From assembly GCF_000337555.1 (NCBI RefSeq), contig NZ_AOIO01000007.1:22293-86292 (forward strand): DNA of 64,000 nt, written 5' to 3'. The position numbers were made by a program, and so were the translations under genes. Source of the stretch: Natrialba asiatica DSM 12278 (GTDB taxonomy: Archaea > Halobacteriota > Halobacteria > Halobacteriales > Natrialbaceae). The notes under the pieces were generated by a model that was not told the origin of the DNA, did not search any database, and worked only from the letters and a program-made list of their open reading frames with translations. Positions 5,016-38,152 of the stretch are shown one piece after another. Within the stretch, counting starts at the first letter, position 1. Every line of letters starts with the position of its first letter.

Positions 5016-5039
5016 AGCGTGTCGATGTATCGCGGATAG

Positions 5040-5046: not shown

Positions 5047-5086
5047 CCATCGCCCGGCCGCCACGAGACGGTCGTTTCGATTATGT

Positions 5087-5104
5087 GTTCCGGCAAACCG
5101 GAAC
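5087..5104. promoter_or_regulatory. 18-bp palindrome, variant of the 17-bp operator
   Basis: GTTCCGGCAAACCGGAAC, a perfect 7+4+7 inverted repeat, 41 bases upstream of the TATA box of the minus-strand DHDPS-family gene. It shares the GTTC...GAAC ends with the 17-bp copies but is one base longer, so it could be a variant site or a site for another regulator. Confidence 0.4.
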
Positions 5105-5135
5105 GATGATTCCACGCCCTATTGTACGACCGCCT

Positions 5136-5366
5136 ATGCAGATGTTTGCCGGATACGGGCGTGACGATGGCCAAATCGGCGTCCGCAATCGTATCGTCGT
5201 CCTGCCGACATCAGTCGCAGCGAGTGCGGTCGCGGACGACATCGCAGCCGGCGAGACACCGGTCGAGACGCTGTCGGACGATGTCGATCTCTCGCTGAAG
5301 AGACGACACTGGAAGCACTGCTGGCGACGCTCAGGACGCTCTCAACGGGGAGCAAACGTGCGCTGA
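5136..5366 (+). pseudogene. Remnant of UxaA-family altronate/galactarate dehydratase
   Basis: The first 35 or so codons read MQMFAGYGRDDGQIGVRNRI..VLPTSVAASAVADDIA in outline, which is the start of the UxaA/GarD catalytic domain (family pattern GYxRxDGxxGVRNxxxVLPT). After about 5260 the similarity ends and the frame runs into basic, non-family sequence to a stop at 5364. A full domain needs about 380 residues, so this is a truncated, non-functional gene. UxaA enzymes dehydrate altronate in bacterial-type galacturonate catabolism, or galactarate in GarD relatives. Its presence beside the oxidative pathway suggests a replaced or duplicated step. Confidence 0.7.
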
Positions 5367-21541: not shown

Positions 21542-21592
21542 GCCCACGGTGTTTCCGGCGATTCGGGATAAGTCCTCCGCCCCGCTGTACGG

Positions 21593-22927: not shown

Positions 22928-23863
22928 TTACAGACGATCGAGGTCGTCGAGAATCCGCCGGAGGTCCTCGCGTTCCTCGTGGTCGATCTGTTCTTGCGGG
23001 GGCAAGACGGTATCGTGCTCGAAGACGCCCTGCATCTGGAGGGCCGCTTTCGTGCGGGCGCGGTAGCGGCCCTCCGGCTCCCCGAAGATGTGGTTGGTCA
23101 GCGGCAACAGCCGTTTGCGGATCTCGCGGGCGCGCTCGATGTCGCCGTCGTGGACGGCGCGGATTTTCTCCACGTGGAGTTCGGGCACGAGGTTCGCGTA
23201 CCCGATGAGCCCGGTTTCGGCCCCCAGTTCGTAGGCGTGCATGAGGAACGTATCGTTGCCCGTCATGATCGTACAGTCGTCCCGAAGGTGATCGACCGCC
23301 CGAATCGTCCGGTCGTACCGAATCGGGTCGAACGAGGCCTCCTTGAACGCGATCACGTGCGGCAGCTTGCAAATTTCGACGTGGGCGCTGATCGGGAGCC
23401 CCGGACTCCCCCAGGTCGGGAACTGGAAGTTGATCAACGGCATATCGACCGCGTCGGCGACGTACTTGAAGTGATTGATCGCTTCCTGGGGAATCTGGTG
23501 GGCGTAGACGTCGAGGGGCAACAACATGACGCCGTCCGCACCGGCATCCTTGGCCGTCTGGGCCAGTTTCGCCGCCTCGATCGAACTCTCGCCGTAGACG
23601 CCGGCGAACACGGGCGTGTCGCCCGCCGCCTCGACGTGCGTCTCGATGACCCGTCGGTAGGTCTCCTCGTCTTGCATCTTCGTCTCGCCGGTGTGGGCGT
23701 TCGCGATGACCGCCTCGATCCCATCGACGGACACGAGGGAATCGACGTGACCTTTGAGATCGGCTTCCACCAGTTCGTACTCCGGCGTCCACGGATTCGC
23801 CGTCGCGGGAATGATGCCACCGGCTATCTGCTCTTTGAGCTCTTTGAACTCGTCTTTCAGCAT
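22928..23863 (-). CDS. DHDPS/KdgD-family enzyme, probable 5-keto-4-deoxyglucarate dehydratase
   Basis: A 311-residue TIM-barrel Schiff-base enzyme. The loop NAHTGE (55-60) matches the family GTTGE-type site and K174 in IAFKEASFD is the catalytic lysine. Where most relatives have a YNxP tyrosine, this protein reads NFQFP (145-149), so the usual catalytic tyrosine may be replaced by Phe. Expected role by context: decarboxylating dehydration of 5-keto-4-deoxyglucarate to 2-oxoglutarate semialdehyde, feeding the dehydrogenase at 28542. The ATG at 23863 was chosen: a TATA-like CTTTTAC is about 30 bases upstream, so longer in-frame starts would be untranscribed. A copy of the 17-bp palindrome lies at 23955. 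Confidence 0.84.
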   Translation of the reverse strand: MLKDEFKELKEQIAGGIIPATANPWTPEYELVEADLKGHVDSLVSVDGIEAVIANAHTGETKMQDEETYRRVIETHVEAAGDTPVFAGVYGESSIEAAKLAQTAKDAGADGVMLLPLDVYAHQIPQEAINHFKYVADAVDMPLINFQFPTWGSPGLPISAHVEICKLPHVIAFKEASFDPIRYDRTIRAVDHLRDDCTIMTGNDTFLMHAYELGAETGLIGYANLVPELHVEKIRAVHDGDIERAREIRKRLLPLTNHIFGEPEGRYRARTKAALQMQGVFEHDTVLPPQEQIDHEEREDLRRILDDLDRL

Positions 23864-23954: not shown

Positions 23955-23971
23955 GTTCCCTTCTGGGGAAC
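23955..23971. promoter_or_regulatory. Putative IclR-type operator, copy 4
   Basis: GTTCCCTTCTGGGGAAC, with six perfect arm pairs. It is identical in all 17 bases to the copy in front of the IclR gene (37328-37344), which is strong evidence that the two promoters share a regulator. It lies about 58 bases upstream of the TATA-like element of the KdgD-like gene. Confidence 0.65.
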
Positions 23972-24269
23972 ATTACAGGAGTACAAACGTAATTGCCGCT
24001 GTGAGTCGCCGGAACGCCTTACGAACGAACGAGATTACGTCTACCCCTCTTCGGAGTTACCGACCGTCACTCTCACTTTTGCTCCCTCTAGCCAACTATA
24101 CCGCCCTGAAACGACCGATTTGGAGCAGCAGAATCCAATTCGCGGTTGCGTTCGATCGTCGTCGTTGAACTCGCCGCTTCTGAAGTCGCGAAACGCTATG
24201 AAACGAACTGTTAGTCGCTGCTACACCGTGGTATTGTCTCACGGTAATTTCTTTCTCGCATCACATATC

Positions 24270-24286
24270 GTTCCCCTCTCGAGAAC
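24270..24286. promoter_or_regulatory. Putative IclR-type operator, copy 5
   Basis: GTTCCCCTCTCGAGAAC, five of six arm pairs, about 190 bases before the enolase-superfamily gene. Confidence 0.5.
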
Positions 24287-24403
24287 AGTTTCTGTACGAA
24301 GAATGGGATGAAAGCGGATCGATAGCAGTGCTATCCGCCTCGTCGACGACACCGGACGAGTTCTCTTCGAGTGAACGGTCGCGGTGAACACGCCTTCTCC
24401 GCC

Positions 24404-24420
24404 GTTCTCGGCGCGGGAAC
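24404..24420. promoter_or_regulatory. Putative IclR-type operator, copy 6
   Basis: GTTCTCGGCGCGGGAAC, five of six arm pairs, ending 27 bases upstream of the TATA element (TTTATA, 24448-24453) of the gene starting at 24478. A site just upstream of the TATA/BRE region is the usual place for an archaeal activator. Confidence 0.6.
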
Positions 24421-24477
24421 GCGACGAGATGGCAGCCACTCGGATGATTTATAGGCCAGGCGGTGGATGCGGTGTGT

Positions 24478-25728
24478 ATGCACATCACTTCGGTGAGCGG
24501 GTACGCCCTCTCGTCGCCGATCGAACCGGTACAGGAACGACCGTTCTTCGGTGGAACGCGCCGCCTTCGCAAACGAGATGTCGTCCTCGTCGTCGTCGAA
24601 ACGAAAGCCGGGCATCAGGGAGTTGCGACGGCCGGGGCCAGTAGCTCCGCCATGCGCGAGTACTTCGAGGGCGACTCCCAGGGGACGTTTGCCGATGTCA
24701 TCGAGACCGACGTCGCCCCCGCACTCGAGGGCGAGTCGATCGACGACAGCCGTTCCGCCCGCGACCTGCTCGCGGCGACCAGCCTCCCGGCACACCTCCG
24801 TACCGAGGCGATCTCGGCGATCGATGTTGCTCTCTACGATATTCGCGGCAAGGAACTCGGTATGCCGGTCTACGACCTTCTGGCCGAGGAGTACGAGACG
24901 GATCCGACGACGGAGATCCCCCTGTACGCCAGCGCGGGGATGTACATGGAACCCGAGGGATACGCCGAACAGGCCGCCGCGATCGAATCGCTCGGCTTTT
25001 TCGGCTACAAGTACCGCCCCGGAATCAACCCCGACGGCGACCGCCGCACGATCGACCTGCTCGCCGACGCGCTCGACGAAACCGAGTTCATGCTCGACAC
25101 CCACACCTGGTGGAAACTCGAGAACGGGTACGGTCGGGCTACCGTTCGTGAACTCGTCGAACACGCGGCCGAGCAGGGGGCCTACTGGATCGAGGAGCCG
25201 GTCGAACCCGCCGATCACGACGGCTACGTCGAGCTAGCTGAAACCGGTGCGCCGTTGGCCGGCGGCGAGAGCGAGTCTTCCCCCGTCGCGCTCGCCGACC
25301 TCGGTCGGACCGGCGGCGTCGAGTTCTTGCAGGGAGACGTTCGCCACCACGAGGGCTTTACCGGCTGCCGAGATGCCATCGAGTTCTGTGCCGGCCGGGA
25401 GGTCGAGTTCGTTCCGCACAACTTCGGCACCTGGCTCGGGTTGCAGGCTAACGCCCATCTCGTGGCCGCGGCCCCGGAGGTTCGGCTGCTCGAGTATCCG
25501 GTTTTCGAGGACGATCCGGCGCTCGAAGAGACGGCAGTCGATCCGGGAATGTATCCGTTCGAGTTGGCGTTCGACATCATCGAGGGGCAGCCGATCATCG
25601 AGGACGGTTGTCTGTCCGTTTCGGATGCACCGGGGCTCGGCGTCGAGGTCGATCTCGACGTACTCGAGGAGTATCCGTTCGTCGAGGGTCCGTGGACGGA
25701 GTTCCACTACGAAGGCGAGACGGCGTAA
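24478..25728 (+). CDS. Enolase-superfamily dehydratase, probably acting on a sugar (di)acid
   Basis: A 416-residue mandelate racemase/enolase-superfamily protein. Active-site pieces are FGYKYRPG (lysine on the second barrel strand, K-x-R instead of the common K-x-K), MLDTHTWWK, YWIEEPVEP, GGESESS (metal ligands) and FVPHNFGTW (catalytic histidine). The K-x-R form suggests one-base (dehydratase) chemistry rather than racemisation. By context it is a candidate galactarate or glucarate-type dehydratase making the KdgD substrate. The ATG at 24478 sits 25-30 bases after a TATTTATA-like box, so a leaderless start; a GTG at 24463 is rejected. Two palindromes precede it. It is followed after 87 bases by a second superfamily member. 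Confidence 0.86.
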   Translation: MHITSVSGYALSSPIEPVQERPFFGGTRRLRKRDVVLVVVETKAGHQGVATAGASSSAMREYFEGDSQGTFADVIETDVAPALEGESIDDSRSARDLLAATSLPAHLRTEAISAIDVALYDIRGKELGMPVYDLLAEEYETDPTTEIPLYASAGMYMEPEGYAEQAAAIESLGFFGYKYRPGINPDGDRRTIDLLADALDETEFMLDTHTWWKLENGYGRATVRELVEHAAEQGAYWIEEPVEPADHDGYVELAETGAPLAGGESESSPVALADLGRTGGVEFLQGDVRHHEGFTGCRDAIEFCAGREVEFVPHNFGTWLGLQANAHLVAAAPEVRLLEYPVFEDDPALEETAVDPGMYPFELAFDIIEGQPIIEDGCLSVSDAPGLGVEVDLDVLEEYPFVEGPWTEFHYEGETA

Positions 25729-25815
25729 TCGCGACGATTCGGACCCCGGTTGCGTAAGGTCGGGGACGTTCCCGTCAACGCAAGCTATATTGTGTGGTAG
25801 TCTCTCGTACACGCC

Positions 25816-26949
25816 ATGGAGATTACGGATATTCGCGCGATTCCGCTCGCTCATTCGCTCCCCGAGGGCCGCGGACTCGGCGATGCGCGGGGATTCGGAA
25901 CCGATCGCGGAACGACGTTGGTGCGACTGGAGACCGACGACGGAACCGTCGGCTGGGGCGAGGCGTTCGCCCCCGGACCGATCGCGACGGCGACCGTCGA
26001 GGAACTGTTCGCCGACGACGTGCTCGGGATGGACCCGTTCGCCGTCGAGTCGCTCGCCGACCGCTCCTACACCGATCCCTACCACTTCGGCGGCGACGTG
26101 TTCGTCCAGAGCGCGGTCAGCGCGATCGACGTCGCCTGCTGGGACATCATCGGAAAATCCGTCGGCCGACCGATTCACCGCCTGCTCGGCGGGACGCAGT
26201 GCTCGGAGTTGACGCCGTACGCGTCGACGATGTACTTCACCGAGGCGGATCGTCCGATCGAAGATCCGATCCGCGTGGCCGTCGTGGAAGGATTTACCGC
26301 CGCGAAAATCAAGATCGGGTCCGGGATCGCGGACGATATCGAACGCGTCAGGACGGCGCGGGAGATCCTCGGCCCCGACACCGACCTGATGGTCGACATG
26401 AACGGCAACTACCGCCCCCATCAGGCGCTCGAATCCGCGCGGGCCATCGCGGAGTACGACGTGACCTGGATCGAGGAACCGGTGCCGCCGGAGAACCGGT
26501 CGGGCTACCGCGAGCTTCGGTCCAAAATCGATACTCCCATCGCGGCCGGCGAAGCCCACTACGGGCGGTTCGAGTTCAAGGAACTGATCGACGACCGAAC
26601 GGTCGACATCGTCCAGCCGAATCTCGGTCGCTGCGGCGGGCTCTCCGAGGCGCGGTTGATCGCCGGCATGGCGTCGACCGAGAACGTCGCCGTCAGACCC
26701 CACATCTGGAACAGCGCCGTCGGCATGGCCGCCGCAATCCAGTTCGCCGCCAGCATCTCGTCGTACCCCAACACGCGCCACGTTCCCGAACCGATGCTGA
26801 TCGAGTTCGACCGCAGCGAGAACCCGCTGCGAAGCGACTTGCTCGAGACGCCGTTCGATCCGGCCGGTGGGACGATCACCGTTCCGCAGTCGCCAGGACT
26901 CGGGATCGATATCGACGAGGCGGCGCTCGAGCGGTATCGCGCCGACTGA
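25816..26949 (+). CDS. Enolase-superfamily enzyme, possible galactarolactone cycloisomerase or dehydratase
   Basis: A 377-residue mandelate racemase-family protein, of a different subgroup from the preceding gene. It has TAAKIKIGSG (K-x-K), LMVDMNGNY (metal ligand), WIEEPVPPE, AGEAHYGRFEF and RPHIWNSAVG (His). Proteins with this layout include the galactarolactone cycloisomerases that convert the uronate dehydrogenase product directly to 5-keto-4-deoxyglucarate lactone forms. That would fit the nearby uronate dehydrogenase, but a dehydratase role is equally possible. It has its own TATA-like GCTATATTG about 27 bases upstream and a half-site GTTCCC just before that. Confidence 0.84.
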   Translation: MEITDIRAIPLAHSLPEGRGLGDARGFGTDRGTTLVRLETDDGTVGWGEAFAPGPIATATVEELFADDVLGMDPFAVESLADRSYTDPYHFGGDVFVQSAVSAIDVACWDIIGKSVGRPIHRLLGGTQCSELTPYASTMYFTEADRPIEDPIRVAVVEGFTAAKIKIGSGIADDIERVRTAREILGPDTDLMVDMNGNYRPHQALESARAIAEYDVTWIEEPVPPENRSGYRELRSKIDTPIAAGEAHYGRFEFKELIDDRTVDIVQPNLGRCGGLSEARLIAGMASTENVAVRPHIWNSAVGMAAAIQFAASISSYPNTRHVPEPMLIEFDRSENPLRSDLLETPFDPAGGTITVPQSPGLGIDIDEAALERYRAD

Positions 26950-27139
26950 GACGGACTGCTGTCAGTCAGTTCCGTCGCACCCGCGACAGTTTGCGAGTGC
27001 GCCGAGAATCGGTACAGCAATCCGCCTGACCGGTCTCCGGGTCGAGTGCTGTGTCCTGCAGATTCGAGACTGAAACCGGCCGCCAGTCCGGTCTCGTCCC
27101 GGAGGTACTTTTATCAGACTGCCCACCCAGATGACGTGT

Positions 27140-27604
27140 ATGCAACGTGCACTTGTCGTTATCGACGACACTGACGCGCACCGACGACTACTCACCGAAG
27201 CCGGCCAGTTCGCTCGCAATGGCGCCGCTGAACTCGTCGTCTTCGCGTGGACGACTCCCGAGGCGGCCGAAGATGGCAACGACGCGATCGAGTGGGTCGA
27301 GGAGATGGAGGGGACCACGTTCGAGGATACCGACGCGACGGCCATGACGCGGCAGTTCGCCCGCGAGTTCAGCGATGACGCGCTGTCGGGGGTCGACGCC
27401 GACGTCGATGTCGAGACCGAGGTCGTCATCACGCCGGACGACGAGCGCGACGATGCGATCCTCTCGGCGGCCGACCGCCAGGGGTGCGATCACGTCTTCC
27501 TCGTGGGGCAAAAGCGCTCGCCGACGGGTAAGGCGATTTTTGGGAACATCGCTCAGCGCGTGCTGTTGAACTTCGACGGGCCGGTAACCGTCATGATGGA
27601 GTGA
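27140..27604 (+). CDS. UspA-type universal stress protein
   Basis: A 154-residue single-domain universal stress protein fold. The start MQRALVVIDDTDAH and the C-terminal nucleotide-loop segment (GQKRSPTGKAIFGNIAQRVLL) match the family; the G-2x-G-9x-G(S/T) loop is present in modified form. The ATG at 27140 is preferred to one nine bases earlier because a TATA-like ACTTTTAT is centred 29 bases upstream. It stands between enzymes of the galacturonate pathway; any role in that pathway is unknown. Confidence 0.85.
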   Translation: MQRALVVIDDTDAHRRLLTEAGQFARNGAAELVVFAWTTPEAAEDGNDAIEWVEEMEGTTFEDTDATAMTRQFAREFSDDALSGVDADVDVETEVVITPDDERDDAILSAADRQGCDHVFLVGQKRSPTGKAIFGNIAQRVLLNFDGPVTVMME

Positions 27605-27687
27605 GGTTCGGCTGGATCGGTACCGTGATGGAGTGAACGGTTGGCCGGACCGGTATTTTGATGGTGGCTCCGCGTGGGACTAGAGGC

Positions 27688-28548
27688 ATGGACGTACTAG
27701 TGACCGGTTCGTACGGCCGCTGTGGAACCGCGATCATCGATCACCTGCACGACGACGATCGGTACGAGTTCACCTACTACAACCGATCCGGACGGGACGA
27801 AGACGATCCCTACGGCGGCTACGAAACCGTTATCGGCGACATTGCGGACTACGAGACGCTTCGGGAGGCCTGTACCGGTCAGGACGCGATCGTTCACCTC
27901 GCCGCCTACCCCTACACCGACGGCGACTGGAGCGACATCTTCGAACCGAACGTCATCGGGATGTACAACGTGCTCGAGGCCGCTCGCGAGGCCGAAGTCG
28001 ACTCGGTCATTTTCGGCTCGACCAACCACGTGATGGGACAGTACGAACAGGAGTTCGCCCCCGACATCTACGACCGCCAGCACGAACTCGTGCTCGACCA
28101 CACGGACCCCGTGCGTCCGGATTCCTACTACGGAGCCTCCAAGAGTTTCGGCGAGGATCTGGGACGGTACTACGTCGAGGACTGTGCGTATCCGAACCGA
28201 TTCTACGCGCTTCGGATCTGCAGCGTCCGGATGCCGGAGTACGACCATCCCTACGGCGACGCCGAGGCGGGCGTCGAAAACGGCGAGTGGGAGCGCGGCA
28301 GCTCCGAGTACGAACGGGAGGTCGCGCGGATGAAAGCGACCTGGCAGTCACGCCGGGACTTCGCCCACCAGATCGAGTGCTGCCTGGCGGACGACCGCGT
28401 CGAGTTCGATATTTTCAGCGGCGTGAGCGACAACCGGCGGCGGTGGTTCGATCTCGAACACGCGCGCTCGGTTCTCGGCTACGATCCGCAGGACGACGGC
28501 GAGGAGTGGACCGCACCGCCGGAGTCCGTCGAGCAGCTGTCTCAGTAG
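27688..28548 (+). CDS. Uronate dehydrogenase (NAD-dependent)
   Basis: A 286-residue extended SDR. Features that fit uronate dehydrogenases are the Rossmann motif TGSYGRCG (6-13), LAAYP near 71, GSTNHVMG (110-117), the catalytic RPDSYYGASK (Y148, K152) and RICSVRMPEYD. The reaction is oxidation of galacturonate or glucuronate at C1 to the aldaro-lactone, the first step of the oxidative uronate pathway. Context supports it strongly: a lactonase, KdgD-like enzymes and 2-oxoglutarate semialdehyde dehydrogenase are all nearby. A TATA-like GTATTTTGA lies about 30 bases upstream. Its 3' end overlaps the convergent aldehyde dehydrogenase gene by seven bases. Confidence 0.87.
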   Translation: MDVLVTGSYGRCGTAIIDHLHDDDRYEFTYYNRSGRDEDDPYGGYETVIGDIADYETLREACTGQDAIVHLAAYPYTDGDWSDIFEPNVIGMYNVLEAAREAEVDSVIFGSTNHVMGQYEQEFAPDIYDRQHELVLDHTDPVRPDSYYGASKSFGEDLGRYYVEDCAYPNRFYALRICSVRMPEYDHPYGDAEAGVENGEWERGSSEYEREVARMKATWQSRRDFAHQIECCLADDRVEFDIFSGVSDNRRRWFDLEHARSVLGYDPQDDGEEWTAPPESVEQLSQ

Positions 28549-29993
28549 TTCATGTAAACCGTCTTCGTCGACGTGAAGAAGTCGAGGCCGGCGTCGCCCT
28601 GCTCGCGGTAGGTGTCCGTCGACGACTGTTTGTAGCCGCCGAAGGGAACGTGCAGTTCGAGGCCGGTCGTCTTCTCGTTGACCTTCGCGACGCCCGACTC
28701 GATCTCCTCGGTGAACCGGTGGGCCTCCGAAAGATCTTGCGTGACGATACTCGCCGAGAGGCCGTACTCCACGTCGTTTGCCACGTCGACGCCCGCCTCG
28801 AAACTGTCGACCTTCAGCACTGCGAGTACCGGTCCAAACACCTCTTCCTGGGCGATCCGCATGTCGCTCGTGACACCCGATACGACGGCCGGTTCGACGT
28901 AGTGGCCGTCCTCGTAGGCCCTCCCTTCGGGCTGGCGGCCGCCGGTCTCGAGGTTCGCGCCGTCTTCGGTCGCGATATCGACGTACTCGAGCGTCGACTC
29001 GAGTTCACTCTGCGTTACGTGGGGGCCCATATCGGGGTTCTCGAGGCCGGGACCGATTTCGATCGACGCGGCGTAGTCGACGATGCCCGCGACGAACTCG
29101 TCGTAGACGTCCTCGTGGACGATCGCTCGAGAGCAGGCGGTGCAGGCCTGTCCGGTGACGCCGAACGCGCCGGCCCCGACGATGTCGACCGCCTCGGCCA
29201 CGTCGGCGCTCGGCATGACGACGGTGGGGTTCTTGCCGCCCATCTCGCACTGCACGCGGGTCAGATCGTCGGCGGCGGCCTGCGCGACGCCCGTTCCGAC
29301 CGCCGTGCTGCCGGTGAACGAGACGCCGTCGATGTCCTCGTGTGACGCGAGCGTCCCCCCGACCTCGCTGCCCGAGCCGGTGACGTAGTTGGCGACGCCG
29401 TCGGGAAGTCCGGCGTCGTCGAGCGCCCCGAGGAGCTTCCGGGCGACCGTCGGCGCTGCGGAAGCCGGCTTTAGCACCGCCGTGTTCCCGGCTGCGAGCG
29501 CCGGCGCGAGTTTCCAGGCCGGAATCGCGATGGGGTAGTTCCAGGGGGTGATCAGCGCGACGGTTCCGAGCGGCTCGCGTTTGGTGTACAGTTCCGTATC
29601 CGTGCCGCTCGGCGATTTGACGGTGCCGCCGAGATCGCGGGCCTTCTCGGCGTAGTAGCAGAAGATATCGATCGCGCGCTGGACCTCGCCGCCGGCTTCG
29701 TCGAGCGTCTTGCCCTCCTCGCGCGCGAGCGTCTCGGTCAGTTCGTCCCGCTGCTCTTCGAGAATCCGGGCCGTCTCCGCGAGCACGTTGCCCCGTTCCG
29801 GCCCCGGCGTCGTCGCCCATTCCGTCTGTGCACCGACCGCAGCTTCGACCGCCGCGTCGGTATCTGCACTCGTCGAAGCCTGGAACTCCCCGACGATATC
29901 GCCCGTGTCGGCGGGATTCCGAACCTCGAACGTCTCGCCCGCACGCGATTCGATCCACTCGCCGTCGACGTAATTACGGTATGCTGTCGGCAT
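28542..29993 (-). CDS. 2-Oxoglutarate semialdehyde dehydrogenase (aldehyde dehydrogenase family)
   Basis: A 483-residue NAD(P)-dependent aldehyde dehydrogenase. Catalytic residues are visible: N152 (TPWNYP), E250 (CEMGGKNP) and C284 (GQACTA). The NAD-fold motif FTGSTAVG is at about 227. Length and motifs fit the XacF/KGSADH group, which oxidises 2-oxoglutarate semialdehyde to 2-oxoglutarate as the last step of oxidative pentose and uronate pathways, including the pentose pathway known in Haloferax. The ATG at 29993 begins the family alignment (NYVDGEW); the longer open frame is not family-like. The exact aldehyde is inferred from the neighbours. Confidence 0.88.
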   Translation of the reverse strand: MPTAYRNYVDGEWIESRAGETFEVRNPADTGDIVGEFQASTSADTDAAVEAAVGAQTEWATTPGPERGNVLAETARILEEQRDELTETLAREEGKTLDEAGGEVQRAIDIFCYYAEKARDLGGTVKSPSGTDTELYTKREPLGTVALITPWNYPIAIPAWKLAPALAAGNTAVLKPASAAPTVARKLLGALDDAGLPDGVANYVTGSGSEVGGTLASHEDIDGVSFTGSTAVGTGVAQAAADDLTRVQCEMGGKNPTVVMPSADVAEAVDIVGAGAFGVTGQACTACSRAIVHEDVYDEFVAGIVDYAASIEIGPGLENPDMGPHVTQSELESTLEYVDIATEDGANLETGGRQPEGRAYEDGHYVEPAVVSGVTSDMRIAQEEVFGPVLAVLKVDSFEAGVDVANDVEYGLSASIVTQDLSEAHRFTEEIESGVAKVNEKTTGLELHVPFGGYKQSSTDTYREQGDAGLDFFTSTKTVYMNY

Positions 29994-30191
29994 TCGGACT
30001 AGTGATTTCGCGTTTCCCGATACGAACGTTGGTCTTCCGGCAAAACTCTCCTCTCGCGCGACGATCCGCTGTGGCTGTGTTCTCTCTTTTTCTCTCGGCC
30101 GTCTTCGCGATGCTGACGGTGACGCGGTATCGCCGTTGGGTCGGCGACGAACCCGAATTACTTTATACGAGTATGCGTACCATTCGTGGTA

Positions 30192-30428
30192 ATGGAGGTC
30201 ACACAACAGACGGACGACTCGGAGTCGGTCGCACATCCCCGCGGAGTGCGGCGCGGATCGCTTCGGAACTCAATCCTGTTGAAACTCGCACTGCTAGGCG
30301 GACTGTTGATCGCACTCGGCGCGCTCATAAACGAAGGCGTCTGGGCCGCCGTTATCACCGTCTGGGGCGCTGGACTGGCACTTGTCGGCCTCGGCTTCTA
30401 CGGATTCATCTGGTGGCGACGCCGGTAA
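30192..30428 (+). CDS. Small membrane protein, unknown function
   Basis: A 78-residue protein with a charged N-terminus (about 25 residues) and two membrane helices (about 28-46 and 50-72), ending in WWRRR. A TATA box (CTTTATAC) is centred about 29 bases before the ATG at 30192, so it is likely transcribed. No family recognised. It is divergent from the aldehyde dehydrogenase gene and convergent with the DUF296 gene. Confidence 0.65.
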   Translation: MEVTQQTDDSESVAHPRGVRRGSLRNSILLKLALLGGLLIALGALINEGVWAAVITVWGAGLALVGLGFYGFIWWRRR

Positions 30429-30467
30429 TCGGTCCGCCCGAGTTCAGAACGCGTCGGCGGTCGTTTC

Positions 30468-30902
30468 TTAGCGACGCTCGAGCTGTGAGATCTGCCGGTC
30501 GTTCGGCCGCCGCTCCAATTCGAGACCCGGTAGTTTTCTGATCGTTATCTCGCCGAGAACGTTGATCTCACAGCCTTGTTCCAGGTGCCCGCCGACGGTT
30601 CGGTCGCCGTCGAACGCGGTCACGTGGAGGTGGGGCTCGCCGTTCGCGATGACGCCGTTGATATCGGTGACTTCCCAGGCACCCGTCAACTCCCGAGAGG
30701 CGTTCCGATCGGCCTGCTCGTCGGGGAGGTCGGTCCGATCCACGTAATGGATGTGCAGGGTGCTGAAGGTGCCGATCCCGGTGACGACCGCACCGGTGTC
30801 AACCTCGTGTGCTGTACAGGCGCGCTCGATCGATTCGAGCGCCATATCGCCGCGATCGAGGCGAACGATGACGTGCCCGTCGTCGGATTCGAACGAGTTC
30901 AT
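30468..30902 (-). CDS. PPC/DUF296-domain protein
   Basis: A 144-residue single-domain protein of the PPC (plants and prokaryotes conserved) or DUF296 family. Seen: MNSFESDDGHVIVRLDRGD with the early VRLDRGD segment, VVTGIGTFS, and GEPHLHVTAF (the histidine pair conserved in the family, a likely metal site). In plants the domain mediates self-association of DNA-binding proteins; in prokaryotes its role is not established. It is upstream of the lactonase stop on the same strand as the lactonase and oxidoreductase genes. Confidence 0.82.
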   Translation of the reverse strand: MNSFESDDGHVIVRLDRGDMALESIERACTAHEVDTGAVVTGIGTFSTLHIHYVDRTDLPDEQADRNASRELTGAWEVTDINGVIANGEPHLHVTAFDGDRTVGGHLEQGCEINVLGEITIRKLPGLELERRPNDRQISQLERR

Positions 30903-30997
30903 CGTCTCACCGTGGACCGGCCGGGAGAATAAAGCTTGACGCCGCGGCAGCCGACGATCCGTCGGGACGGCGATCCGCGTTCGACGCCGGGTGCTCT

Positions 30998-32059
30998 CTA
31001 CCGCGGATCGAGAACCGTCACGCAGACCGGCTTCGGCACCGCGAGTTCAGCGCGCGCGTCGAGGCGTCCGTCGCCGTCGATCGCGAACGCGACGAGCGAG
31101 TCGCCGTGCTGATTGGCCGCAAGCAGGAACTCGCCACCGGGCGAGAGCGCGATGTCTCGGGGCGTTTCTCCACGCGTCGACTGGTGACCGATGCGTTCGA
31201 GACTCCCGCTCGCCCGGTCGACCGCGAAGACGGCGATGCTGTCGTGGCCCCGGTTCGAGACGTACACCCACCGGCCCGACGGGTGGACGCCAACGGCTGC
31301 GGGTGCGTTGTCTCCACCGAACTCCGAGGGGAGGGTGCTCGTCCGACCGACCGCCGTGAGCGCACCGGACTCGCGGTCGCGACTGAACTCGCTCACCGTC
31401 GACTCGAGTTCGCCGACGACGTAACAGACGGAGGCGGTCGGATGAAATGCGATCTGACGCGGTCCCGCCCCCGCACGGGCCGTTGCGGGCTCCGTTTCGG
31501 CCGCTTTCAGTTCGCCGGCGTCGGCGTCCGGGCGGTAGATCGCAATGCGATCCGTTCCGAGGTCGGGTGCGTAGCAGAACCGATTCCGCGGACCCGGTTC
31601 GATCGCGTGGGGATGCGGGGCTGACTGCCGGTCCTGATCCGGACCGGTCCCCTCGTGGCGGACGACATCGCTGGCCTCGCCCACCCGCCCGTCGGATTCG
31701 ATCGGAAACGCGGCGACGGTTCCGCCCCGGTAATTCGCCACGAACGCGTAGCGTCCGGTCGCATCGACGCTGACGTAACAGGGGGCGGCCCCCTCGCTCG
31801 AGCGCTCGTTGAGCCGCGACAGATCGCCGCAACCGTCGTTCAGTCGGTAGGCGACCAGTCGTCCGCCCGCCGCTCGCTCGACCGTGTAGAGACTCTTCCC
31901 GTCGGGGTGGACCGAAAGAAACGCCGGATTCGCCGCGGGAACTCGTGTGCGCTCCGTTACCGTTCCGTCGGCCGCCAACTCGATATCGACGATGCCGTCG
32001 CCGTTGCTCCCGGCCGAACAGACGAGTACGCGGATCGTCTCTCGTGTCCGTACGCTCAT
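30998..32059 (-). CDS. Seven-bladed beta-propeller lactonase (Pgl/YbhE family)
   Basis: A 353-residue lactonase-family protein related to 6-phosphogluconolactonase YbhE. Repeated propeller strands end in motifs such as FLSVHPDGKSLYTVE, YVSVDATGRYAFVANYRGG, AIEPGPRNRFCYAPDLGTDRI, GVHPSGRWVYVSNRG and LSPGGEFLLAANQHG. It has no signal peptide. In this locus the fitting substrate is the galactarolactone made by uronate dehydrogenase. The ATG at 32059 begins 12 bases after the Gfo/Idh/MocA gene stop, so the two form an operon; a GTG one codon earlier is possible. Confidence 0.87.
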   Translation of the reverse strand: MSVRTRETIRVLVCSAGSNGDGIVDIELAADGTVTERTRVPAANPAFLSVHPDGKSLYTVERAAGGRLVAYRLNDGCGDLSRLNERSSEGAAPCYVSVDATGRYAFVANYRGGTVAAFPIESDGRVGEASDVVRHEGTGPDQDRQSAPHPHAIEPGPRNRFCYAPDLGTDRIAIYRPDADAGELKAAETEPATARAGAGPRQIAFHPTASVCYVVGELESTVSEFSRDRESGALTAVGRTSTLPSEFGGDNAPAAVGVHPSGRWVYVSNRGHDSIAVFAVDRASGSLERIGHQSTRGETPRDIALSPGGEFLLAANQHGDSLVAFAIDGDGRLDARAELAVPKPVCVTVLDPR

Positions 32060-32071
32060 CACAACGCGGCG

Positions 32072-33124
32072 TTAGCCCAGTAGCGCGTCGTCTCCGAACG
32101 CGTACCGATCGGCGAGTTCGATGCGGTCGCCGGTGCGACCGGACTCGTACGCCGCCATCGTCACGACCAACGTTCGAAACGCGTCTCGAACCGAAATCGG
32201 CGGTTCCGTTCCCTCGAGCACCGATTCGGTGAACGCTTCGGCCTTGGTCCGTCGGCCGTGATAGTCGAGATACGGATCGTGCTTCGTTCCCTCCGCGTCG
32301 ATCGTGTAGCCGGTGCGTTCGTCCCACTCGCGGCCCTCGAGATACACCGCGCCGTCGTCGTCCCAGATGTGGATGTGTTCCCGGGTACACGCGACGATCC
32401 CCGTGTCCGAGACGGTGGCGAGCGCGCCGTTTGCGAACTCGATGGTGATCGACGATTGCGTGTCGAAGTACTGGTCGTCGTCGTGGAACTCTACGGTGGC
32501 GTCGACGCTGGTCGGCGTGAGGCCGGTTACCCAGAGAATAGCGTCGAGAACGTGTGAGCCAACGTTCAGGAGGTGACCGCCGCCGCTCAGTTCGGGGTCC
32601 ATTCGCCAGTCGTCCATGGTCTCGTAGTACGAGCGCCAGTCGTGGGTGATCTCGGCCGTGATCGATGTCGGGTCGTTGTTGCCCGTCGCCCACCGTTCGC
32701 GGGCCATGATGAACGCGGGGTTCAGGTGACGCTGGTAGCCGAGCATCACCACTCGATCGGTCTCCTGCTCGCGTTGATAGAGTTCAGCCGCGTCGTCGAC
32801 GGCCGTCGCCAGCGGCTTTTCACAGAGGACGTGCAGGTCGCGGTCGAGCGCGGCCAGGATCTGTTCGTAGTGCAGGCCGTTCGGGGTGGCGATTGCCGCC
32901 GCATCGAGGGTGGCCTCGTCGAGCATCGTTTCGTAGTCCGCGTATTGGGCCGACTGCGGAACGTCTAATTCGCGGCCCGCATCGGCGAGGTTCGGTTCGT
33001 TGATGTCGGCCAAGGCGACCAATTCGGCGTTCGGGACGGTTTCGAACTGCCGGCCGAGTCGGACGCCGAGGCTGCCGAGTCCGACGAGTCCGACGCGAAG
33101 CGGCGATTCGGATGGGTCAACCAT
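32072..33124 (-). CDS. Gfo/Idh/MocA-family oxidoreductase
   Basis: A 350-residue NAD(P)-dependent sugar oxidoreductase. The N-terminal Rossmann motif GLVGLGSLG, the CEKPLATAVDDA segment (catalytic lysine region), and the C-terminal alpha/beta domain with GGHLLNVGSHVLDAI (histidine of the active site) are present. The family oxidises or reduces sugars and inositols; substrate not readable. I prefer the ATG at 33124 because a TATA-like ATTATAC is about 33 bases upstream; an in-frame ATG at 33139 is only 18 bases from it. First gene of an operon with the lactonase. Confidence 0.87.
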   Translation of the reverse strand: MVDPSESPLRVGLVGLGSLGVRLGRQFETVPNAELVALADINEPNLADAGRELDVPQSAQYADYETMLDEATLDAAAIATPNGLHYEQILAALDRDLHVLCEKPLATAVDDAAELYQREQETDRVVMLGYQRHLNPAFIMARERWATGNNDPTSITAEITHDWRSYYETMDDWRMDPELSGGGHLLNVGSHVLDAILWVTGLTPTSVDATVEFHDDDQYFDTQSSITIEFANGALATVSDTGIVACTREHIHIWDDDGAVYLEGREWDERTGYTIDAEGTKHDPYLDYHGRRTKAEAFTESVLEGTEPPISVRDAFRTLVVTMAAYESGRTGDRIELADRYAFGDDALLG

Positions 33125-33283
33125 GTCGTAATCACGCATACAGGTAAATAGCGTATAATTGTTTTGTTCGGTGGGTGTTTGCCGTCTCTTGTGGCGCGGT
33201 CTTGCCCTGCAGTCCTGCAGCCGGTTCGTCGTGGTCGGTGATCGCGGTGACCGGTGATGCCGGACTAGGGGAGCGCTCAGCGG

Positions 33284-34852
33284 TCAGTCCAGATCGAGCC
33301 GCACATCGCTCCCATCGTCGATTTCGATCGAGTCGGCCAGCGAACCGTGGTTGCCCGCCAGCGAAATCGTGTCGGTCTTCGGACCGCTCGCGCGCAGGAA
33401 CTGTCCGTCCGACGGCGCGGTACAGCCGCTCACGCGGGTGCGCTCGGCGTTCGAAAGTGAGAGAGCGGGTTCGTCGGATGAGGCGGATGAGTCCGCGGAG
33501 CGTTGCACATCGAGTCCGTCGATGGTTACGTCGTCGGTTTCTTCGACGCGCAGTGCAGGGCTGTCGGGCGTTCGGAGTTCGACGTTCCGAAACGAGATGT
33601 CGGCGATGGACTTGCAGAACAGGCCGTGGGTCTGCTCGTAGCCGTCGGCCATCGCGGGATCGAGGTCCGTCGCATCGAGCGATCTGGTTGCGTCGATCCG
33701 CACGTCGCGAAACGAGATGCCCTCGAAGTACCGCTCGGGGAGTCCGGCGAAGAAGCCGGCGGTCTCGACGTTGCGGGCGGTAATATTGCTGAACGAGACG
33801 TTGCGGACCAGCGGCGTCCCCTCGTCGATCGGTTCGGGATCGCTGTCCAACGGGGTGAAGTAGTAGCCGTTGATGACGAACGGACACGCGATGCGGCGCA
33901 TGACGATCTGGTCGAATCGCAGGTCCTCGACGACGCCACCGCGGCCTCGCTGGGTCTTGATCCGGATCCCGCGGTCGGTGTCGGTGAACGTGCAGTTCGT
34001 CACCGTCACGTCCCGGACGTCGCCGGACATCTCGCTGCCGATGACGACGCCGCCGTGACCGGCCTCGACGGTGCAGTTCGTGACCGTGATCTGCGAGGCC
34101 GGTTCGCCGACCTCACGCCCCTCCGCGTCCTTCCCGGATTTGATGCAGATCGCGTCGTCGCCCGCGTTGATGTACGCATCGCTGATCCGGACGTACCGCG
34201 AGGAGTCGATGTCGATCCCGTCGCCGTTCGGCGCGCCGGCCGGGTTTTCGATGTTCACGTCGGTGATCGTCACGTTCTCCGAGTAGACGACGTGCGTGTT
34301 CCAGAACGGCGAGTTCCGTAGCGTCACGCCCGAGACGGTGACGTTCTCGGCGTCGAAAACCTGGAGCAGCGGCGGCCGGTGCGTGAAACTGCTCACGTCA
34401 TCTTGCTTGTCGTTTTGCGCCTCGAACTCGGCCAGTCGGTCCTGCAGTCCGTCGGGAAGCGTCGATTCCGGTTCGCCGTAGAACTGCCACCAGTACTCGC
34501 CGTTCCCGTCGATCGTTCCCCGACCGGTAATCGAAACGGTGTCGGCTCCATCGACCAGCAGGCACGGGTGGAAGCCGACCTGATCCCACCCCTCCCAGCG
34601 ACTCTTTACCGTCGGGAACGCCTCGTAGTCGCCGACGAATCGCAGTGTCGCTCCAGCCTCCAGATGAAGCGTCGTCCGATCGCCGACGCGAAGCGGACCC
34701 GTCACGTACGTTCCCGGGGGAACGGACACCGTTCCGCCGGTTCCGGCACACTCGTCGAGCGCCGTCTGAATCGCCTCGGTATTGGAATCGTCGGACCCAC
34801 TCTGTGCGCCGAACTCGCGGATGTCGTATCGGCCCGTGTCGGGGACTGCCAT
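33284..34852 (-). CDS. GH28 polygalacturonase, apparently cytoplasmic
   Basis: A 522-residue glycoside hydrolase family 28 protein (right-handed beta-helix). The GH28 catalytic set is seen: the NGDGIDIDSS block (the NxD motif), NAGDDAICIKSG (the two adjacent aspartates), VEAGHGGVVIGSEMSG (GHG histidine) and RIKTQRGRGG (RIK substrate-binding motif). There is no Tat or Sec signal at the chosen ATG (34852), so it should act inside the cell on imported oligogalacturonides, most likely as an exo-enzyme. A TATA-like GTTTATTTT is about 26-30 bases upstream. It follows the GH4 gene by 74 bases on the same strand. The last 60 residues lack GH28 similarity. Confidence 0.93.
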   Translation of the reverse strand: MAVPDTGRYDIREFGAQSGSDDSNTEAIQTALDECAGTGGTVSVPPGTYVTGPLRVGDRTTLHLEAGATLRFVGDYEAFPTVKSRWEGWDQVGFHPCLLVDGADTVSITGRGTIDGNGEYWWQFYGEPESTLPDGLQDRLAEFEAQNDKQDDVSSFTHRPPLLQVFDAENVTVSGVTLRNSPFWNTHVVYSENVTITDVNIENPAGAPNGDGIDIDSSRYVRISDAYINAGDDAICIKSGKDAEGREVGEPASQITVTNCTVEAGHGGVVIGSEMSGDVRDVTVTNCTFTDTDRGIRIKTQRGRGGVVEDLRFDQIVMRRIACPFVINGYYFTPLDSDPEPIDEGTPLVRNVSFSNITARNVETAGFFAGLPERYFEGISFRDVRIDATRSLDATDLDPAMADGYEQTHGLFCKSIADISFRNVELRTPDSPALRVEETDDVTIDGLDVQRSADSSASSDEPALSLSNAERTRVSGCTAPSDGQFLRASGPKTDTISLAGNHGSLADSIEIDDGSDVRLDLD

Positions 34853-34926
34853 CGTCTGCCTATTTCGCAGTACGAAAATAAACGTTGCGTCGTCGGCGAT
34901 TCGTGACCGAGGTTCTATCGCTCTCC

Positions 34927-36366
34927 TTACGGACGCCGATCGGGTCCCGTCTCGAGAATCGCCGCGTTCTCTCTGTCCCACGCATCAAGGAACTCGCGTT
35001 CGCGCTCGACGAGTTCACTGAAGAGGGATTCGGCCGCCTCCCGCTCGAGAGTCACGAGGGGGTCGGAGAGGAATACCCGGAACGCCCGGTCGAGGTCGCC
35101 GTCGAAGCCGGCCTCGACGAGCGTTTCCTGATTGTGGACGTGCGCGAGGACGAGCGACCGGAGCGACCGGGGAAGCGAGCCCGCGGTCAGCGGCGTGACG
35201 GCGTCACCGGTGAGCAACGCGTTCGTCTCGACGACGGCGCCGTCCGGCAGGTTGGCGACCTGTCCCCGGTTGGGATAGTTCAGGTGCGTTTCCAGGGGTT
35301 CGAGCCCGAGCAGCGCCCGGATGATGTCGACGGCTTCCTCGCCGGATTCGGTGAGTTCGAACGTCTCCGCCCCCGAGAGATACCGTTCCGTCGGCGTCGG
35401 TCCGTCGGCCGGAAGCCGCGCTTCGCTCGGCGTCAATCGGATTCCCCACCGGTGGAGTTCGTCGGGATCGTCGAGTTCGAGATACCACGGGACGAACTCG
35501 ACGAGGTGGCGGTCGCCGGCAGCGGGGAAGCAGCCGAACCGGTCGTAGAGGTCAAACGCGACGCGGTAGTTGTTGGTCCAGTAGGATGCGTCGGCCATCG
35601 AACCGGGATCGAAGTCGGCAAGCGGCGTTCGGGCCGCGAGTTCGGCGTCGAGGAACCGATAGAGGTCGCGGCCACGCCAGCGGGCCTCGTCGACCCACGT
35701 GAAGTGGTTGATTCCCTTGACGGTGACGTGAACCTCGTCCGGATCGACGGCGTCGACCCCGTCGAGGTGCGTCGCCGCGAGTTCGGCGAACAACTCCTGC
35801 GTTTGAAACACCTCGTGACAGAGGCCGATGGCTTTGATCTCGGGGAACTCTTCGTAGAGGGTGCGGGTGCAGACGGTCATCGGGTTCGTGTAGTTGAGCA
35901 CCCATGCATCGGGACACTGTTCGCGGATCGTCGCCGCGATTTCTCGGTACTGTGGAATCGCCCGCATCGAGCGCAGGATGCCGCCGGGGCCGACGGTATC
36001 GGCGACCGGCTGGTGGATGCCGTACTGCTTGGGCAGGTCGATGTCGTGGACGAACGTCTCCGCCGGCGGGTCCTGGATCGAGCAGATGACGATATCCGCG
36101 CCCGAGAGCGCGGCGGACAGGTCCCGAACCGCGTCGAACGTCCAGTCCCCGTCGGCGTCCGCGCGATCCGTTACCTGCGTTCCGAGTTCGGCGTTCTTCC
36201 TCGCGGCCTCGTAGTCGACATCGTACAGCGCAACGGTGCCGGCGATGTCCGTACACTGCGCGAGGTCGTTGATGAGGGTGTGCGCCCAGCCCTGACTGCC
36301 GCCGCCGATGTAGCCGATCCGAACTTCCGGAATTGCGTCGCTCGACCGTCTGCCGAGGTGATGCAT
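34927..36366 (-). CDS. GH4 alpha-galacturonidase
   Basis: A 479-residue glycoside hydrolase family 4 protein, a NAD- and metal-dependent enzyme that cleaves by a redox-elimination mechanism. The Rossmann motif IGYIGGGSQGW (17-27), LNYTNPM (158-163) and the diagnostic GLCHEV are present; CHEV occupies residues 183-186. That CHEV motif is reported as the signature of alpha-galacturonidases within GH4, distinct from CHSV alpha-galactosidases and CHG-type glucuronidases. No signal, so cytoplasmic, matching GH28 next to it. The ATG at 36366 is chosen over a GTG three codons earlier. Expected job: releasing galacturonate from short oligogalacturonides. Confidence 0.9.
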   Translation of the reverse strand: MHHLGRRSSDAIPEVRIGYIGGGSQGWAHTLINDLAQCTDIAGTVALYDVDYEAARKNAELGTQVTDRADADGDWTFDAVRDLSAALSGADIVICSIQDPPAETFVHDIDLPKQYGIHQPVADTVGPGGILRSMRAIPQYREIAATIREQCPDAWVLNYTNPMTVCTRTLYEEFPEIKAIGLCHEVFQTQELFAELAATHLDGVDAVDPDEVHVTVKGINHFTWVDEARWRGRDLYRFLDAELAARTPLADFDPGSMADASYWTNNYRVAFDLYDRFGCFPAAGDRHLVEFVPWYLELDDPDELHRWGIRLTPSEARLPADGPTPTERYLSGAETFELTESGEEAVDIIRALLGLEPLETHLNYPNRGQVANLPDGAVVETNALLTGDAVTPLTAGSLPRSLRSLVLAHVHNQETLVEAGFDGDLDRAFRVFLSDPLVTLEREAAESLFSELVEREREFLDAWDRENAAILETGPDRRP

Positions 36367-36456
36367 ACGTCTCACCCGAACGGAACGCGCAAAAGCGTTG
36401 GTGATTGGGGTCGAAACTGCCGGCTCTCCTCCTAATGGACCGGCTGTACCTCGCGT

Positions 36457-36890
36457 TTAGATGCCGCCACGCGGCGACCGACGGCCTCCGATCGGTGTCG
36501 GACGGGCTGTGACCGGCTCGCCACGCAACGTCGCAAACGCCAGCGGCACCGGGTCTTCGAGACGAATGTGGTCCTCCTCGTCCACGGACGCGTTGCCAGA
36601 CGGCCGCACTTCTCGGACGTTTGCCCCCACACGAGCCGCCGCGTCGAGGTCGTAGCTGACGCCAGCCCGCCGAGCGCTCTGAAGAACTCTTGCTGGACGG
36701 CGACGTTTGCAAGTCGCGTTTCGTTGCTAACACCGCGGGCATCGGCAGCGACTGCAACGCCAGATCCCGGATCGATCACGTCGGCGAAAAGCGGTGTCTC
36801 CGTGTCGTCGTATCGATCGCGACCGTCTGCAAGAACTGTCTCGACGCGTCGCTGAACGGTGTCGATCAGCTCCGCTGCTCCTGCGTTCAC
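36457..36890 (-). pseudogene. Decayed gene fragment, unknown family
   Basis: The first 75 or so codons from the ATG at 36890 look coding and halophilic (RDRYDDTETPLFADVIDPG, LANVAVQQEFFRALGGL). A frameshift near 36670 then moves the coding pattern to another frame (SYDLDAAARVGANVREV ... VPLAFATLRGEPVTARP) that ends at 36457. The total is too short for any enzyme suggested by the start. The N-terminal wording recalls the start of several haloarchaeal polysaccharide-active proteins, but I cannot assign it. Confidence 0.55.
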
Positions 36891-37378
36891 CGTGCCTGGT
36901 ACCCAGTCCAGCGGTCGGTATTTGTTCGTTCCGGTGAGTTCTCCCCTGCTGGTTTCCGTTACGGCTATTATCGATTACCCTTCGTTTCTCTCCCCGAGAG
37001 CAGTGAGTTCCCGCTCGCCGAATATTGACAAGCGTACTGTTGTAATGAATGTGCGGAAACATTTCAATCGTACACTTGTAAATGATATCGACCGGTCCTC
37101 ACGTAGTAGTGTCGAATAGCGGCACTGTAGCGCTTCTACACACTGAATACGCCGTTTATCCGGTGTTCAGATCTGTTCGCGAGACGGGAATGACGACCGG
37201 TTCAGCGATACTGTGTCGGACGACGTTGTGGGTGTCGGCCTGCGACGGGCGGTCCGCTAACAGGGACGGACGAACGCACCCAGCGAGTAGTCAGTGCTGG
37301 ATCGATCGATCCAGACGACCCATTTTGGTTCCCTTCTGGGGAACAGACTTATAATGCTGAACTATGATACCACTTTGT
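36891..37378. promoter_or_regulatory. 488-base control region upstream of the IclR gene
   Basis: No gene is visible. It contains AT-rich patches near 37020-37085 and the exact operator copy and TATA element in front of the IclR gene. Confidence 0.5.
37328..37344. promoter_or_regulatory. Putative IclR-type operator, copy 7 (autoregulatory position)
   Basis: GTTCCCTTCTGGGGAAC, identical to 23955-23971. It ends three bases before the TATA element (TTATAA, about 37349-37354) of the IclR gene, overlapping the BRE position, so binding here would directly affect transcription of the regulator itself. Confidence 0.65.
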
Positions 37379-38152
37379 ATGGCAAGCACCCCCAATAAAC
37401 GCACGGGACGGCGCATTCGGTCGGTCGAAATCGCATTTACGATTCTCGACGCCATCCGTGCGAACGAGGCGACGAGCGTTACCGAACTGGCCGACGAGCT
37501 CGGTCACTCCAAAAGCACCATCCACAGTCACCTTCGAACCCTCGAAAGTCAGGAGATCATCGTTCGGCAGGACGATGGCTACCGACTCAGTCTGCAACTC
37601 CTCGATATGGCAAACGACGTTCGAGAGCAGGTTGCAAACTACGAGGTCATCGTCGACGAAGTCGATAAACTGGCGTCCGAAACGGGCGAAATCGCCCACT
37701 TTGGGCTCGAAGAACACGGCAAAGTGGCCTACCTCTACAAGGCGATGGGTACGCAGGCCGTCGAAACGGTCTCGCGCCCCGGCGGCAAACAGCCGATGTA
37801 TTCGACATCGCTCGGGAAGGCCATCCTCGCCTTCCTCCCGGCCGACCGACGCCGAGAGATTCTCGAACACGTCTCGTTCGCCCCGAAAACGCCGAAAACG
37901 ATCACCGACCCCGAGCGCTTCGCTGATGAACTCGATGTCATCACCGACCAGGGGTACGCGATCGACGACGAGGAAAACATCGAGGGGCTCCGGTGTGTCG
38001 CCGCTCCCGTTAAAAACGAGAACACGGTCCTCGGCGCCGTCAGCGTCTCCGGTCCAGTGAGTCGCAGCACTGACGAGGTCCTCCACGGTGAACTCGCCGA
38101 AAGCGTGCAACGGACCGCCAACGTGATCGAACTCAATACCAAATTTTCCTAA
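37379..38152 (+). CDS. IclR-family transcriptional regulator
   Basis: A 257-residue regulator with an N-terminal winged helix (about 15-75; recognition part VTELADELGHSKSTIHSHL) and a C-terminal GAF-like effector domain (RPGGKQPMYSTSLGKAILAFLP; GYAIDDEENIEGLRCVAAPV). IclR proteins control catabolic genes by binding short palindromes; XacR of Haloferax is a haloarchaeal example for pentose oxidation. The ATG at 37379 is chosen because the TATA box is 25-30 bases upstream; an ATG at 37364 is too close. The 17-bp palindrome next to this TATA box recurs at the sugar-acid genes, so this is the probable regulator of the locus. The effector is probably a pathway intermediate. Confidence 0.92.
   Translation: MASTPNKRTGRRIRSVEIAFTILDAIRANEATSVTELADELGHSKSTIHSHLRTLESQEIIVRQDDGYRLSLQLLDMANDVREQVANYEVIVDEVDKLASETGEIAHFGLEEHGKVAYLYKAMGTQAVETVSRPGGKQPMYSTSLGKAILAFLPADRRREILEHVSFAPKTPKTITDPERFADELDVITDQGYAIDDEENIEGLRCVAAPVKNENTVLGAVSVSGPVSRSTDEVLHGELAESVQRTANVIELNTKFS

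Follow-up and report, generated by a model that had tools for sequence, protein, structure and literature searches.

The haloarchaeon Natrialba asiatica DSM 12278 carries, on contig NZ_AOIO01000007.1, a locus of predicted pectin and galacturonate genes that we analysed within one stretch of 64,000 nucleotides (the window, whose coordinates are used below). This locus holds an iclR gene and several copies of a 17-bp palindrome, GTTCCC-N5-GGGAAC, here called M1. The best explanation for the distribution of M1 is that it is the predicted operator of this IclR protein, which would control a pectin/galacturonate regulon, and we give this reading a probability of roughly 0.85. The first-pass annotation had proposed that the palindrome marks an IclR regulon. 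That proposal is supported by the presence of M1 at the promoters of iclR orthologs and its near absence from those of paralogs, by its co-occurrence with iclR among genomes, by its recurrence before the same pathway genes, and by its match to the GTT-11-AAC operator type. The regulator, the M1 sites and their nearest predicted targets are the following, with palindromes given without strand.

37379..38152, plus strand: iclR, a predicted regulator of 257 amino acids with HTH_IclR (PF09339, 1.1e-10) and IclR_C (PF01614, 4.9e-39) domains.
37349..37356, plus strand: TATA box of iclR, TTATAATG, a conserved column block in 31 aligned promoters.
37328..37344: predicted promoter-proximal M1 operator, GTTCCCTTCTGGGGAAC, 4 bp ahead of the iclR TATA box, kept in 65 of 70 ortholog promoters.
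37175..37191: auxiliary M1 site, GTTCGCGAGACGGGAAT, 153 bp upstream of the proximal one, with 153-154 bp kept in three Natrialba species.
22928..23863, minus strand: KdgD-like gene of the dihydrodipicolinate synthase (DHDPS) family, 311 amino acids, a predicted target (PF00701, 1.7e-39; under the KdgD family cut-off).
23955..23971: predicted M1 operator for the KdgD-like gene, with the same 17 bases as at iclR; a single spacer base differs in N. taiwanensis.
24270..24286: predicted M1 operator upstream of MR2, GTTCCCCTCTCGAGAAC, identical in N. taiwanensis.
24404..24420: predicted M1 operator of MR2, GTTCTCGGCGCGGGAAC, lying 134 bp from the copy at 24270, with TATA about 28 bp downstream; identical in N. 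taiwanensis.
24478..25728, plus strand: MR2, of the enolase (mandelate racemase) superfamily (PF13378/PF02746), a predicted target with M1 sites ahead of it in 7 genera.
3329..3345: M1-like site, ATTCCCTTCTCGGGAAC, between convergent genes, next to the conserved KdgD-type gene.
3562..3578: M1 site, GTTCCCGTACCGAGAAC, in the convergent gap 3195-4077; a change in N. taiwanensis stays in the consensus.
3870..3886: M1 site, GTTCCCCGTCCGGGAAC, in the same gap, identical in N. taiwanensis.

As the first-pass annotation had reported, the 17-mers at 23955-23971 and 37328-37344 are identical, and the copies at 24270 and 24404, before an enolase-superfamily gene, match the degenerate form GTTCYC-N5-GRGAAC exactly. 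The placing of the sites also proved correct, with the iclR copy adjoining its TATA box and the 23955 copy upstream of the KdgD-like gene, 92 bp ahead of the ATG and with a TATA-like sequence about 55 bp away. Exact copies at 3562 and 3870 and the near copy at 3329 had been overlooked, and the exact matches to the degenerate form in the window are those at 3562, 3870, 23955, 24270, 24404 and 37328. Against shuffled sequence, the 17-mer with up to three mismatches occurs five times (0.20 expected) and the degenerate form with one mismatch ten times (1.02 expected). M1 sites also stand out as conserved islands in comparisons between Natrialba species. The 1-mismatch copy at 24360, considered as a fourth site of the KdgD/MR2 region, is not retained in N. 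taiwanensis and is probably no site.

Could the copies be chance palindromes in a GC-rich genome where GTTC and GAAC are common? The first-pass annotation had expected that the motif would not occur at random density across the genome, and this held for exact copies and failed for loose ones. The 4.4-Mb genome has nine exact copies, six of them within the window, which is 1.5% of the genome; the other three fall within called reading frames and therefore look like chance. With one mismatch, 76 sites were found where about 70 are predicted from the window shuffles (1.02 x 4404/64), so that the loose motif alone is uninformative; we dropped this count as evidence and relied only on exact or matrix-scored sites. 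These chance-level results are what such an account would predict, but the clustering of exact copies in one short stretch, the shared spacer of two of them and a position conserved in 26 genera make it very improbable. For the proximal and KdgD/MR2 sites the evidence already refutes it; it could still hold for 24360 and for weak single matches.

The promoters of iclR orthologs carry most of the evidence. The order and three of its families were searched, which gave 70 usable loci from 26 genera, and the palindrome is present in 65 of them, 50-78 bp ahead of the matched start. About 4 bases separate it from a TATA box placed for a leaderless start in most of these promoters, and in N. asiatica the TATA position relative to the ATG at 37379 implies a leaderless iclR transcript. 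Across the 31 aligned promoters, information drops to background upstream of the palindrome and runs on into TATA downstream. Among the five loci without it, G247b owes its miss to a contig edge, as the site appears in a longer stretch. The association is specific to this type of IclR gene, as M1 stands in only 1 of 35 promoters of paralogs (Fisher 4e-21 against the orthologs, a p-value that is only a guide because the rows are related). Genomes tell the same story, with 2.78 exact GTTCCC-N5-GGGAAC copies per family genome where the ortholog is present (n=23) vs 0.92 where it is absent (n=102; p=1.4e-7), and most exact copies lie within about 50 kb of iclR among the listed genomes. Within Natrialba, the counts are 4, 4 and 5 with iclR vs 1, 0, 0 and 0 without it.

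The protein is a clear member of the IclR family. Its N-terminal winged helix-turn-helix scores 41.6 bits against PF09339 (cut-off 22), its C-terminal effector domain scores 134 bits against PF01614 (cut-off 24), and its nearest structure in the PDB is 1mkm (E 4.7e-34). The best NCBIfam matches are to IclR regulators of the KdgR, BhcR and PcaR type, led by BhcR (157 bits) and KdgR (139 bits), yet all scores are far under the curated cut-offs, and so the protein cannot be counted an established equivalog of any of the three. In a quick tree the 70 orthologs form a single clade with support 100. The tree conflicts with taxonomy, for example where copy G215b of genus g2 clusters with a genus from a different family (g56), and plasmids carry many of the orthologs; together these suggest horizontal transfer of the locus. 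Some paralogous IclR genes (L221, L222, L225, L231) carry GTT-11-AAC palindromes of their own (GTTTG...CAAAC), such as GTTTGTCACACACAAAC. There are two such sites, 26 bp from each other, at about 31 and 57 bp upstream of the match start, an arrangement that the present regulator does not share.

A second palindrome, M2, accompanies M1. It is 22 bp long (WTTACA-N3-RTAY-N3-TGTAAW; query form ATTACA-N4-TA-N4-TGTAAT; for example ATTACAATAGTACATATGTAAT), and the window holds four sites with at most three mismatches vs 0.2 expected.

23972..23993: M2 palindrome, ATTACAGGAGTACAAACGTAAT, abutting the KdgD M1 on its promoter-distal side.
3283..3304: M2 palindrome, TTTACACCCGTATGTATGTAAT, with the 3329 M1 site 24 bp away.
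37025..37046: M2-like palindrome, TTGACAAGCGTACTGTTGTAAT, two mismatches.
37061..37082: M2-like palindrome, ATTTCAATCGTACACTTGTAAA, two mismatches (one in N. taiwanensis).

M2 abuts M1 in eight genera, mostly at promoters other than that of iclR, with 0-1 bp between them and 19.5-20.5 bp from centre to centre; wherever the target gene is evident, M1 lies nearer to it and M2 farther off. The N. asiatica genome has 30 M2 sites with at most two mismatches vs 1 for the reversed pattern, and positions 9 and 12, which the query left free, are R and Y in 97%. Of the sites outside the window, 12 of 25 are at most 1 kb from an IclR-like gene, often with a different 17-bp palindrome nearby. Among paralog loci of other genera, M2 lies at most 600 bp from the IclR gene in 14 of 20 vs none in reversed sequence, although many of the 20 belong to one clade and are not all independent. 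Distinct 17-bp palindromes in the N. asiatica genome (GTTCGAcactgTCGAAC, GTTTCGctgtcCGAAAC, GTTCAAtatcgTTGAAC and ATTCCGtagcaCGGAAT; loci L197-L213 and L016) stand about 120 bp or less from M2 and may be operators of other IclR proteins.

It could be argued that M1 belongs to another co-occurring transcription factor and that IclR binds something else, such as M2, itself a strongly conserved palindrome adjoining many IclR genes. However, M1 tracks this IclR clade and not the paralogs, it has the GTT-11-AAC form of the family, and some paralogs have variant palindromes of their own at the corresponding place in the promoter (GTTTGTCACACACAAAC, 31 bp from the match start). M2 keeps one form beside many divergent IclR paralogs, an indication of a shared factor. 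We consider a foreign owner of M1 improbable. For M2 itself, we see about an even chance that it is the operator of an unrecognised global haloarchaeal regulator pairing with many IclR proteins. On that reading each IclR would contribute its own GTT-11-AAC variant, specific to a pathway, and the input common to all would come from the M2 binder, M1 and M2 being docked on the same DNA face at a distance of about 20 bp. Our literature search found no description of an M2-like sequence in haloarchaea, subscription papers being mostly outside that search.

M1 sites also occur in pairs. We scanned 1.2 kb upstream of the 65 proximal sites at a threshold of at least 13 bits, and a second M1 appeared at 120-170 bp in 19 cases (15 after collapsing by genus) vs 0.1 in shuffles; none appeared at 20-120 bp in these promoters, and elsewhere they were rare, except at 320-370 bp. 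The spacing is usually 126-167 bp. For neighbouring sites not at iclR, 19 of the 37 spacings left after collapsing fall at 110-165 bp, the one between 24270 and 24404 among them. Looser searches across whole genomes gave 16 pairs at 112-142 bp, 6 at 143-173, 3 at 81-111 and 10 at 174-204; some of these pairs are plainly unrelated, so the preference is clear yet less sharp on that measure. The auxiliary site was also considered as a mere operator of the divergent neighbour and this was rejected, the nearest divergent gene in Natrialba (GH4) starting some 800 bp off.

The recurring pairs suggest that an IclR tetramer may bridge two M1 operators. Dimers may instead act singly, without a DNA loop, with the 126-167 bp spacing reflecting promoter layout or shared ancestry, and we rate this a serious contender at somewhat below even odds. 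Helical phasing, looked for in apparent clusters at 142, 154 and 165 bp, was not significant in the iclR promoters (Rayleigh p 0.3-0.67) and is only suggestive in the pooled set, which was examined after the fact; the genome-wide search has pairs at 174-204 bp beside its excess at 112-142 bp. Single dimers would, however, leave to be explained why the 65 promoters never have a second M1 at 20-120 bp, and why the pile-up at 126-167 bp is sharp at unrelated promoters of several genera.

The same target genes recur in relatives. Matrix sites of at least 15 bits were sought in 73 stretches (about 1.5 Mb), the matrix coming from iclR promoters of part of this set with target promoters left out; 158 sites are non-coding or start-proximal vs 19 deep in genes, though coding DNA is 5 times larger. 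M1 lies ahead of iclR in 26 genera, of ThuA in 10 (a count that takes in cases where ThuA is merely divergent from iclR), of MR2 in 7 and of u41075 in 4. It also precedes KdgD, pectate-lyase-like and luciferase-like genes in 3 genera each, MocA and substrate-binding-protein transporter genes in 2 each, and pectinesterase in 1. A genome of another family (L146) has a divergent KdgD/MR2 region with sites at both promoters, as in the window.

Compared with known systems, M1 resembles the operator GTTYCRYW3RYGRAAC of IclR group 1 subgroup (ii), the GTT-11-AAC type (PMC8222616). It shares with this bacterial subgroup the 17-bp odd palindrome, the GTTYC...GRAAC ends and the spacing, and the outer GTTC/GAAC positions are kept in 29-31 of the 31 aligned ortholog sites. 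The bacterial sites have R-Y at positions 6-7 and an A/T-rich centre, whereas position 6 of M1 is C in 29 of 31 and its centre is mixed; with C/T instead of R at this position, M1 is a variant of the known operator type and not a textbook member. Tandem sites with centres 18-22 bp apart occur in more than half of the bacterial IclR groups (PMC8222616), whereas M1 has its second copy at 126-167 bp, and any neighbour that it has at about 20 bp is M2, which differs in sequence. As far as our literature search found, the conserved second M1 and the abutting M2 have no earlier description.

Among haloarchaea, the first-pass annotation had likened the regulator to XacR, which controls similar oxidative sugar pathways, and the comparison is apt as an analogy. 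As with XacR, RhcR, GacR and MscR, the IclR-family gene adjoins an oxidative sugar pathway cluster; the substrate is different, the genes here being those for pectin and galacturonate. Work by Johnsen et al. in 2015 reportedly found that XacR activates pathway genes and represses its own gene via a palindrome in its promoter; a palindrome at the regulator's own promoter is the trait that 65 of 70 orthologs show here. Haloarchaeal IclR members act as activators (PMC11519228), and a remote upstream region, 250-750 bp, is required for xylose control of xacEA (PMC10448506).

From these data we propose that an IclR dimer would bind GTTCCC-N5-GGGAAC. At its own promoter M1 lies at about -51 to -35 and abuts the B recognition element (BRE) and TATA box; since the site touches them, autoregulation would most likely be autorepression. 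At the divergent KdgD/MR2 promoters, and at the ThuA, pectinase and transporter promoters of relatives, the protein would activate with a galacturonate-pathway compound bound, activation being likely because M1 at catabolic genes is at least 28 bp upstream of TATA. The first-pass annotation had taken positions just upstream of TATA/BRE to fit an activator or an autoregulator, and the positions are compatible with either. M2, on the side of M1 away from the promoter, is probably bound by a different, shared regulator working with many IclR proteins.

Some points weigh against the assignment of M1 to IclR and its regulon. Four orthologs (G305, G297, G397b, G510b) are without a proximal site, and the enrichment in the target scan is partly circular because its matrix came from overlapping iclR promoters. 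The gene calls were made by a simple composition rule. In the gap 3195-4077 no recognisable gene or target was found for its three M1 sites, and the proposed direction of regulation draws on position and on the analogy with XacR.

The gap itself, 880 bp between convergent IucC-like and KdgD-type genes, has one M2 site beside its three M1 sites; its identity to N. taiwanensis is about 94%, and some blocks are almost perfectly conserved. An RNA was considered and rejected, there being no Rfam match anywhere in the window. In several relatives, similar sites at this position precede a gene of 353 amino acids that is absent from the N. asiatica window.

Close named relatives are N. aegyptia and N. 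taiwanensis, whose IclR proteins are 99 and 98% identical, respectively. The window has two DHDPS/KdgD-type genes, and two enolase-superfamily genes, MR2 and MR3, lie beside the KdgD-like one. Further features of the locus are as follows.

25816..26949, plus strand: MR3, enolase superfamily; nearest solved relatives 5olc and 4ggb.
27658..28548, plus strand: uronate-dehydrogenase-like gene; nearest PDB entry 3ay3, plus the uronate dehydrogenases 6mfh and 3rft.
28542..30236, minus strand: aldehyde dehydrogenase (PF00171, 2.7e-164), candidate ketoglutarate semialdehyde dehydrogenase, the substrate being inferred from the pathway.
4077..5174, minus strand: second DHDPS-family, KdgD-type gene (KdgD subfamily model 6e-40, under cut-off), the copy that accompanies iclR in most ortholog neighbourhoods.
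21593..22711, minus strand: pectinesterase (PF01095, 5.1e-71).
20819..21547, minus strand: ThuA-family gene, with M1 sites at most 500 bp from its ortholog in 10 other genera.
33284..34981, minus strand: gene of glycoside hydrolase family 28 (GH28, the polygalacturonase family; PF00295, 5e-49).
34927..36375, minus strand: GH4 family glycosidase gene (PF02056, 8.3e-51).

The locus also has pectate-lyase-like genes, a lactonase and a peptide-type ATP-binding cassette (ABC) transporter. It holds one homolog for each step of the oxidative (galact)uronate pathway (uronate dehydrogenase, galactarolactone cycloisomerase, keto-deoxy-galactarate dehydratase or KdgD, ketoglutarate semialdehyde dehydrogenase); all score below equivalog cut-offs, so that substrates are read from the gene set as a whole. 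Siderophore-type biosynthesis genes (lysine/ornithine monooxygenase, IucA/IucC) adjoin the locus at 68-3195. Upstream of the KdgD-type gene, at about 5135-5290 on the plus strand, lies an apparent N-terminal fragment of a UxaA/GarD-type hydro-lyase (MFAGYGRDDGQIGVRNRIVVLPT...), probably a gene remnant.

Haloarchaea that have genes for GH28 enzymes and pectate lyases did not grow when tested directly on pectin, and attempts at enrichment were unsuccessful (PMC9726719); a 2025 paper considers haloarchaeal use of such polysaccharides for growth unproven (PMC12343721). Orthologs of iclR are present in related isolates, including HArc-gm2 and AArc-m2/3/4, which are named as non-growers on pectin (PMC9726719). 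The M1 sites provide a sequence-defined regulon for pectin/galacturonate use in an archaeal order with pectin-breakdown genes in which growth on pectin is undemonstrated. As the regulon is defined by its operator, inducers and conditions can be tested by reporter, a direct route to what induces these genes. The pairing of M1 with M2 suggests, in addition, that archaeal sugar regulation may use a promoter code of two parts and involve a further regulator.

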